Shown piece after piece: positions 44,469 through 46,240 of a stretch of 64,000 nt of DNA. The DNA is taken from contig NZ_JACHML010000001.1 in assembly GCF_014208045.1 (NCBI RefSeq), forward strand, positions 2,418,001-2,482,000, read 5' to 3'. The stretch's first letter is position 1. Every line of letters begins with the position of its first letter. The notes below the pieces were generated by a model, which ran no database searches, had not been told where the DNA came from, and saw nothing but the letters and a program-made list of their open reading frames with translations. The DNA is from Microbacterium thalassium (GTDB lineage: Bacteria > Actinomycetota > Actinomycetes > Actinomycetales > Microbacteriaceae). The translations under genes were made by a program, and so were the position numbers.

Positions 44469-45512
44469 TCAGTTCCAGCGCCGCGGGATCCCGGGTGACA
44501 CCCGGACCGCGATCTCCTCGCCGATCGTGTCGATCGCCTCGGCGAGATCGGTCGGCGATCCCTCGCCGCTGCCGCCGGGACCGAACACCGTGACGACGTC
44601 GCCGGGGCGTGCATCCGGCCACGACTGCACGGCCGACTCGTAGGCGCCGATACCCAGGAGGGAACGACTGCCTCCGGGCGTCCCGACCTCGACGAGACCC
44701 GCGAGCGACGACGGCAGCCCGTCGAGGGAGCCGACGGCCGCGATCGCCTGATCGCCCGAGACGCGCAGAATCGGCGCCCGCAGGCTCGCGATCGGCCGGA
44801 TGCCGAGGTCGGCGGACCCCGGTCCCCCCGCCGGACGGATGCCGTAGGCGAACGCGCCCACCCGCACCATGTCGTAGCGGAACCCGGGGCGCGCGAACGA
44901 GGCCGCGCTGGCGGCCAGGTGCCGCACGCGCGGCGCCAGACCGGCATCGCGTGCGCGGGCCACGGCGACGTCGAACCGGTCGCGCGCCGCGTCGTCCTCC
45001 GCGTCCGACGCCTCGGCGATATGACTCCACACGCCGACGACCTCGAGGACCCCCTGGCGCTCCAGGTCGCGCGCCCGGCGGACGAAGCCATCCCAGTCCT
45101 CGGGGCGCACGCCGTTGCGGTGAAGGCCGGTGTCGGCCTTCAGATGGATCCGGGCCGCACGGCCGTCGCGCCGCGCGGCGTCGGCGACGTCCTCGAGCAG
45201 CAGCGCGTCGCCGACGCCGATCTCGAGGCCCGCCGCGATCGCGTCGGCAGCCTCCGTCGCCGTGCCCACGATCCACACGAAGATGGAGGCCTGTTCGCCG
45301 ACCGCCGCCCGCACCGCCGCACCGGTGCGCACGTCGAAGGCGCCGAAGCTGCGGATCCCGGCCGCCCAGGCGCGCTCGGCGGTCGCGGAAAGGCCGTGGC
45401 CGTAGGCGTCGTCCTTCACCACGAGCATGTGCTGCGCGGGCGCCACGCGTGCGCGGATCGCCGCCAGGTTCGCGACGAACGCCTCCGAGTCCATGACGAG
45501 CTCCGCCCTCAC
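44469..45512 (-). CDS. Alanine racemase-like protein with PLP barrel but degenerate C-domain (AlrB)
   Basis: A 347-residue fold-type III PLP protein. The barrel is complete: Lys33 in VVKDDAYGHG (PLP lysine, with Tyr37), IHLKADTGLHRNG (Arg132), SHIAEA (His164), LAASAAS (Ser202) and DMVRVG (Arg217). The C-terminal domain is abnormal. No tyrosine occurs between residues 224 and 290, so the catalytic Tyr265 equivalent (V-S-Y-G in other Alr) is missing. The Met312/Asp313 site appears as Tyr291/Glu292, and the late TINYEV motif reads TIGEEI. GTG 45512 has GGGAGG eight bases upstream and overlaps the previous stop. It probably needs the C-domain of the coupled partner. Confidence 0.85.
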   Translation of the reverse strand: MRAELVMDSEAFVANLAAIRARVAPAQHMLVVKDDAYGHGLSATAERAWAAGIRSFGAFDVRTGAAVRAAVGEQASIFVWIVGTATEAADAIAAGLEIGVGDALLLEDVADAARRDGRAARIHLKADTGLHRNGVRPEDWDGFVRRARDLERQGVLEVVGVWSHIAEASDAEDDAARDRFDVAVARARDAGLAPRVRHLAASAASFARPGFRYDMVRVGAFAYGIRPAGGPGSADLGIRPIASLRAPILRVSGDQAIAAVGSLDGLPSSLAGLVEVGTPGGSRSLLGIGAYESAVQSWPDARPGDVVTVFGPGGSGEGSPTDLAEAIDTIGEEIAVRVSPGIPRRWN

Positions 45513-46240
45513 GCGGCGTCCTCCCTGAGCGCACGCGCGCCGATCACGGCGACGATCTCGCCTGCTGACAGTCCCGAGCCGGCCTCCCACGGCGCGAGCG
45601 ACGGCGCCGCTGCGCGCGGATCCCCGAAGAACACGATCTCGTCCCCGCGCGAGAGGTCGGCACCGCCGATGTCGACGACGCAGACGTCCATGGCGACGCG
45701 CCCGACGATGGCGTGGCGGCCGGCGCGGCTGGCGACCTCGACGCGATCGCCCAGGGAGCGGACGATCCCCTGTGCGTAGCCGCCGGTCACGAGCGCGATG
45801 GTCGTGTCCGCCGATGCGCGATGCCGGTAGCCGTACGAGACGCCCTCGCCGGCCAGCAGCGGTTTGACCGACAGGATGGCGCCGTACAGCGTCAGGGCGG
45901 GCTCGGCGGCCGCGTCGCCGCCCGGCAGCCCGAGCACGGTGCGGGGGTCGAGCGTCGGCTCGGCGGTGGCCGAGACGGCGTCGTCCGCCACGCCTGCGGC
46001 GGACAGGGCGGCCGCCGCCGCGTCGTCGACCCGCAGCACCGGCACGCCCGCCGCCAGCAGGGCGCGCCCCACGGCGACGGCGCCATGCCCCCAGGCATCC
46101 GCCCGGACGTCGCCGACGAGCGCTGCATCGGCGGTGGCGACGGCCAGCCCGGCGTTGTGCGCGAGGGCTCCGCGCGACACGACCGCGCGGGGAGCGCTGC
46201 CTCCGGCGCGCAGTCGTCCGCCGAGGTTCGCCGCAGTCAC
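45509..46240 (-). CDS. Alanine racemase-like protein with intact C-domain but truncated barrel (AlrA)
   Basis: A 243-residue relative of alanine racemase. It begins like Alr, but the PLP lysine motif VKADAYGHG reads VRADAWGHG (Arg46, Trp50), and after about residue 84 most of the barrel (roughly 130 residues) is missing. The C-terminal beta-domain is well kept: AGEGVSYG (Tyr136, equivalent of catalytic Tyr265), GGYAQG (Tyr155), VGRVAMD (Met184, Asp185) and GDEIVFFG. It cannot bind PLP in the usual way alone. GTG 46240 follows TAGTCT by seven bases, so the message is probably leaderless. The stop overlaps the start of the second racemase-like gene, and the two are co-translated. Confidence 0.82.
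   Translation of the reverse strand: MTAANLGGRLRAGGSAPRAVVSRGALAHNAGLAVATADAALVGDVRADAWGHGAVAVGRALLAAGVPVLRVDDAAAAALSAAGVADDAVSATAEPTLDPRTVLGLPGGDAAAEPALTLYGAILSVKPLLAGEGVSYGYRHRASADTTIALVTGGYAQGIVRSLGDRVEVASRAGRHAIVGRVAMDVCVVDIGGADLSRGDEIVFFGDPRAAAPSLAPWEAGSGLSAGEIVAVIGARALREDAA

Follow-up and report, generated by a model that had tools for sequence, protein, structure and literature searches.

The window analysed here, a stretch of 64,000 nucleotides from Microbacterium thalassium, contains two overlapping genes on the reverse strand whose products both resemble alanine racemase (Alr). The upstream gene, AlrA (45509..46240; 243 aa, GTG start), is a C-domain half of the enzyme and the downstream gene, AlrB (44469..45512; 347 aa, GTG start), is a barrel half, as judged in each case from the reading frame, Pfam matches, alignment and an AlphaFold model. 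The AlrA stop and the AlrB start overlap by four bases (45509..45512, reverse strand), across which the two are presumably translationally coupled, and in their relatives the two frames likewise abut or overlap.

Alr makes D-alanine for bacterial cell walls and, as a homodimer, is an antibacterial target. It is a fold-type III PLP enzyme (PF01168 and PF00842; TIGR00492) with two active sites per homodimer, whereas AlrA and AlrB are two different chains with a predicted maximum of one site between them. Reports on Alr structures assign the PLP lysine, Tyr43, Ser204, Arg219 and Tyr354 of a site to one monomer and Tyr265′, Tyr284′, Arg290′ and Met312′ to the other (PMC3245724; PMC3485190); Alr residues are numbered here as in the Bacillus/Geobacillus enzyme.

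AlrB has the PLP lysine, Lys33 (codon 45414..45416, reverse strand), at the position of Alr Lys39 and within the motif VVKDDAYGHG, together with Tyr37, Lys125, Arg132, His164, Ser202 and Arg217, and retains the lysine-side active-site residues of Alr with the exception of Tyr354. Its only tyrosines are at positions 37, 213, 223 and 291, with none from 224 to 290, and its C-domain lacks both the Tyr265 stretch and Met312; among aligned AlrB sequences it is the whole Tyr265-bearing stretch that is deleted rather than the tyrosine alone. AlrA has a vestigial barrel without the PLP lysine, with Arg46 in its place (46103..46105) and Trp50 at the position of Tyr43, and a C-domain in which Tyr136 (45833..45835), Tyr155 and Met184-Asp185 (45686..45691; all reverse strand) correspond to Alr Tyr265, Tyr284 and Met312-Asp313. 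Pfam recognizes the barrel of AlrB with an E-value of 3.8e-50 and its C-domain at just 7.1e-6, and the C-domain of AlrA at 1.7e-25 and its barrel at 0.0028, below the cut-off for that model; neither protein passes the TIGR00492 alr model (124 bits for AlrB and 94.2 for AlrA, with a cut-off of 168). Single-chain AlphaFold models (mean pLDDT 94.7 for AlrB and 93.2 for AlrA) predict the full Alr fold of barrel plus beta C-domain for AlrB, and a C-domain with a partial barrel of about three strands for AlrA. A first-pass annotation of this DNA had described AlrB as having the PLP lysine and a full barrel with no tyrosine between residues 224 and 290, and AlrA as having Arg46, a tryptophan and a reduced barrel while retaining Tyr136, Tyr155, Met184 and Asp185, and both descriptions agree with the residues, alignment, domain matches and models given above.

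The same division of residues is seen among relatives of the two proteins. The count was made after removing six duplicate rows per class, and excludes two long misaligned rows that are fusions (G018 and G045) and two odd rows (G012_L112 and G053_L151). Among 60 distinct AlrA sequences Lys39 occurs in none, 57 being aligned at that position and the other three having, by eye, arginine in two cases and no motif in one, while Tyr265 and Met312 are each present in all 60, Arg290 in 58 and Tyr284 in 56 (phenylalanine in the other four). All 60 distinct AlrB sequences have Lys39, Lys129, Arg136, His166, Ser204 and Arg219, and none has Tyr265 or Met312; a changed Met-Asp site in AlrB had been pointed out in the first-pass annotation. 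Lys129 and His166 are presumably the equivalents of Lys131 and His168 in the numbering of PMC3245724. There are thus no exceptions to the lysine/tyrosine/methionine partition among these sequences; 18 one-per-genus pairs were labelled by the state of Lys39 and Tyr265, making the tally circular for those rows, and the same result is obtained from the window and from 47 loci whose labels came from gene order. With 60 distinct sequences per class showing it, the partition is not due to chance. Lys39, Tyr265 and Met312, as expected of an Alr, are held by the pair jointly and by neither protein singly, and the two catalytic residues are not found in one chain type, as they would be in a lysine or broad-specificity racemase. 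The split also matches the subunit from which each residue derives in Alr structures (PMC3245724; PMC3485190).

These patterns make it highly likely that AlrA and AlrB together form a fold-type III PLP racemase of the Alr family from two non-identical subunits, with one active site; very probably neither protein works outside the mixed pair. As in Alr, the barrel of one chain and the partner's C-domain would enclose the site: PLP would be bound to AlrB Lys33 and held by AlrB Tyr37, Arg132, His164, Ser202 and Arg217, with AlrA Tyr136, the catalytic tyrosine proposed to be supplied in trans, and AlrA Met184 facing the AlrB-bound cofactor. The opposite site would have neither lysine nor tyrosine, such that only one of the two possible sites would be workable, and each protein alone, and each homodimer, would be inactive; the loss of residues from both chains argues against active homodimers. 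Both heterodimer formation and racemase activity are what we infer from these features.

The distribution of the genes is consistent with obligate partnership. AlrB was found at 30 loci in named genomes, 29 of them in the Microbacteriaceae (28 Microbacterium and one Humibacter), and AlrA lies directly upstream of it in all 29, the thirtieth locus being a single distant Alr; beyond the Microbacteriaceae, the search took in 139 genomes of the order, using AlrB as the only query and an E-value of 1e-60. When 60 Microbacteriaceae genera were sampled with one genome each, the pair was present in 18, with AlrA directly before AlrB in every one. A further two genera have a fusion, and eight carry a complete alr with another complete gene, here called alr2, directly after it; the pair and alr2 occur together in none of the 60. 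Homologues of either gene on its own, named at the outset as evidence that would speak against a heterodimer, do not appear among the matches listed for the 60 genera, which extend to E-values of about 8e-10. DUF7455 and parE lie behind AlrB at all 29 named loci. On the other side of the window pair are genes for an ATP-grasp protein (PF14397; 46286-47302) and an F420-ligase-like protein (PF01996; 47364-48062); a PF14397 gene is found within the 5 kb flanks at 25 of the 29 named loci (at four of them a 45-49% paralogue) and a PF01996 gene at 23, and both are possibly wall-modifying ligases.

The pair is not the only racemase of its host. A complete alr is present in the window genome (G000:C1:1559710-1560780), leading us to reject that idea, and 17 of the 18 pair genera also have one, which counts against the proposal in that it leaves the pair's own role there putative. 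The first-pass annotation had suggested surveying the family for co-occurrence of the two genes in the absence of a normal alr; the co-occurrence is borne out by adjacency in all 18 pair genera, but a normal alr is absent from only one. It had likewise regarded a complete alr elsewhere, with the pair dispensable, as telling against its reading. The first half of this is what we find, and in a wider sample of 12 Microbacterium genomes the best match is AlrB- or alr2-like in ten, with a canonical-type match only in the other two.

In G013, which was identified as Tropheryma whipplei and consists of one contig (927,303 bases), an AlrA/AlrB pair lies beside parE and no other Alr was found in the genome. 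Its two halves score 91.1 and 106.7 bits against TIGR00492, below the cut-off of 168, and a D-Ala-D-Ala ligase match is present. Two class-IV aminotransferases score above cut-off as an aminodeoxychorismate lyase and a branched-chain transaminase, and no D-amino-acid transaminase was found above cut-off. The pair should therefore make D-alanine in this organism, unless D-Ala is imported, and it appears to replace the normal alr in G013, though not in the window genome. The D-amino-acid transaminase model finds nothing above cut-off in any of the 20 genomes without a complete Alr (G013 and 19 of the fusion-bearing genomes described below), and in the control set it passes in one of 14 genomes; weak matches occur in 18 of the 20, the best at 64.7 of the required 277 bits, and these have been assigned to other enzymes for G013 only.

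At the position of Tyr354, AlrB has glutamate in 41 sequences, aspartate in 18 and a gap in one (n = 60), the window AlrB having glutamate; alr2 has Glu or Asp in 11 of 11 (loci L023, L034, L038, L078, L080 and others), and the fusions keep the tyrosine. AlrB lacks a tyrosine at 354, as do lysine and broad-specificity racemases, so its site is not a plain Alr site. According to one report, the gap between Tyr265′ and Tyr354 sets the specificity for alanine, and in lysine-preferring racemases the latter position is occupied by Thr or Ala (PMC3485190). The Lyr, Bar and BsrV racemases have the same fold as AlrB, with Tyr354 likewise replaced, and are homodimers. In Lyr and Bar the replacement is Thr or Ala (PMC3485190); AlrB differs in having Glu or Asp there and would need AlrA for its tyrosine. 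A separate Alr-like family, complete in one chain and with histidine aligned at 354, is present in several genera (loci L116, L136, L137, L153, L249 and L250).

It is accordingly a genuine possibility, though not one on which we would wager, that the pair is a heterodimeric racemase working by the same mechanism on a physiological substrate other than alanine, such as ornithine, lysine or serine. Besides the residues at 354, this accords with alanine already being covered by the complete alr and with a statement that Microbacterium walls can contain D-ornithine (PMC10757982). Against it, G013 also has Asp aligned at 354 and no other Alr was found there, indicating that alanine is accepted unless D-Ala is imported; restoring tyrosine at 354 in a lysine racemase is described as changing its Lys/Arg preference little, so position 354 alone is not predictive (PMC3485190); and M. 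enclense, which carries the pair (L043), is listed with L-lysine in the same source on walls (PMC10757982), which makes it harder to tie the pair in any simple way to wall D-ornithine. Since glutamate replaces the alanine-specificity tyrosine and the host has its own complete alr, it seems more likely that the window pair in particular is a specialised racemase, and a D-diamino acid for the wall would be a fair guess at its substrate.

The complementary halves also occur joined in single chains. Two genera, g19 and g46, contain them in all genomes searched (11 of 11 and 12 of 12, respectively), and in ten g19 and nine g46 genomes (19 of 23) they form one open frame in the order AlrB half then AlrA half. 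The first half has a barrel with Lys39, Lys129, Arg136, His166 and Arg219, followed by a C-domain where Tyr354 aligns and neither Tyr265 nor Met312 does; the second has Tyr265, Tyr284, Met312 and Asp313 and no aligned lysine (serine where the motif is found), and in g46 it is barely more than a C-domain. The halves occupy two frames in G439 and G484, and the fusion frame is broken by a frame change in G496 (L243) and G533 (L245/L252), which may reflect assembly error or decay. Of the 23 genomes, 19 yielded no complete Alr, the exceptions being G457, G439, G484 and G518, so that in most genomes of these two genera the fused form appears to stand in for the normal alr; two genomes with both a pair and a fusion (G432 and G478) also have no complete Alr that we could find. 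The usual surroundings of alr are glmS and tsaE, and by inspection of two loci the fusion genes of G018 and G045 adjoin glmS- and tsaE-like frames. TsaE, the tRNA threonylcarbamoylation ATPase, continues the fusion frame of G045 and, in G439, comes after the C-domain half (Pfam); an Alr half and TsaE share one frame at L143:1573-3555 (+) and L231:590-1816 (-) by Pfam, these being the two loci covered by the TsaE scan, and other g46 loci have long frames as well. One genome, G457, has a 595-aa frame with the order reversed to AlrA-AlrB (L246:1495-3279, reverse strand), in addition to its complete alr (L225) and an AlrB-AlrA fusion (L253).

These fusions bear on two further readings of the pair. 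By analogy with antizyme inhibitor and ornithine decarboxylase, AlrB alone might be a PLP enzyme of some non-racemase kind, with AlrA as its regulator, as the complete PLP-binding barrel of AlrB and the lost PLP site of AlrA would allow; we consider this very unlikely, as AlrA keeps the partner-site residues Tyr265, Met312 and (in all but two sequences) Arg290, for which a regulator has no need, and the same partition is found in fusions that are the sole Alr found in most of their genomes. Just as improbable to our minds is that AlrA or AlrB pairs mainly with full-length Alr and modulates it: AlrA could in principle pair with a full Alr, a complete alr accompanies the pair in nearly all pair genera, and fold and interface are common to both, but wherever pairs were inspected their genes either overlap or abut, and pairs occur where no complete Alr was found in G013, G432 and G478, the latter two also having a fusion. 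Least credible of all is a decaying duplicate leaving two pseudo-racemases without joint function, which the complete alr of the window genome and the two Microbacterium genomes with a canonical-type match only might suggest, but which is at odds with dN/dS values well below one in both genes, the invariance of the catalytic residues in 60 distinct sequences per class and retention of the pair in the 0.93 Mb genome of G013.

The dN/dS values are 0.09-0.28 for AlrA and 0.12-0.24 for AlrB, from the 14 closest of 153 pairs among 18 Microbacterium loci. Across all 153 pairs the mean pN of AlrB is 0.118 in the barrel and 0.210 in the C-part, and that of AlrA is 0.197 in the N-part and 0.120 in the C-part; both genes are under purifying selection, which is strongest in the domain that builds the proposed shared site. 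Returning to the heterodimer, the initial suggestion that a duplicated alr suffered reciprocal losses to give one shared site is strongly supported by comparison, through the residue partition, adjacency, selection, the constraint on opposite domains and the fusions.

The history of the pair is not a simple single split, since in a barrel tree intact alr2 genes nest within AlrB, which is not one clade (AU p 0.0008 for AlrB as one clade, the group having been chosen after earlier trees were seen); alr2 may be ancestral or may be an AlrB with a regained loop. Eleven rows of fused or split genes have barrels that cluster with canonical alr (100/96), apart from AlrB and alr2, and a single origin of AlrB and the barrel halves of both fusion groups is rejected (AU p 2.8e-5), from which it follows that Tyr265 was lost at least twice from the lysine-bearing copy. 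This demonstration of separate origins extends to the barrel halves and not to the AlrA halves: AlrA and the g19 AlrA halves as one clade are not rejected (AU p 0.136), and the G018 row falls inside the AlrA group in a quick C-domain tree. A common origin of g19 and g46 gives an AU p of 0.16. The quick C-domain tree places 38 of 39 AlrA rows in one group, which a second, smaller tree does not recover, C-domain trees having too few columns. The exceptional row, G008, lies near canonical alr, and its AlrA is nearly full length (about 380 aa) without Lys39, Arg136 or His166, an apparent intermediate. Living genera would then display successive stages, from the near-full AlrA of G008 through the partial barrel of the window to g46, with almost no AlrA barrel.

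Duplication of a homomer followed by complementary loss and an obligate heteromer is familiar from trypanosome deoxyhypusine synthase and from AdoMet decarboxylase with its prozyme, which are other enzymes and eukaryotic; to our knowledge no such case has been described among bacterial PLP racemases, nor any accompanied by naturally fused single chains. Strych and Benedik (2002) are said to have used inactive mutants of Alr/DadX to test the dimer; those mutants were engineered, with lysine and tyrosine coming from different subunits as proposed for the pair. The first-pass annotation knew of no described case, and the accessible part of the open-licence PMC literature likewise yielded no account of an alanine racemase that is heterodimeric or split.

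A practical consequence concerns annotation: the G013 halves miss the NCBI alr cut-off, and the two fusions that were scanned exceed it once the scores of their halves are summed (273.3 and 208.8 bits) and would look ordinary. Putting the strands together, we offer only tentatively, and with more doubt than belief, the full scenario in which the homodimeric Alr of the Microbacteriaceae was reduced to one active site on no fewer than two occasions, perhaps on more. One outcome would be the separate AlrA/AlrB subunits, with repeated loss of the Tyr265 loop within the AlrB/alr2 clade; the others would be the g19 AlrB-AlrA fusion and the g46 barrel-C-domain-C-domain-TsaE fusion. In the same scenario the heterodimer of the window lineage moved to a new substrate, a D-diamino acid of the wall. 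If it works as proposed, the pair would be a clean bacterial example of the passage from homomer to obligate heteromer: a natural Alr, apparently evolved more than once, whose dead sites complement each other and whose active sites are halved in number.
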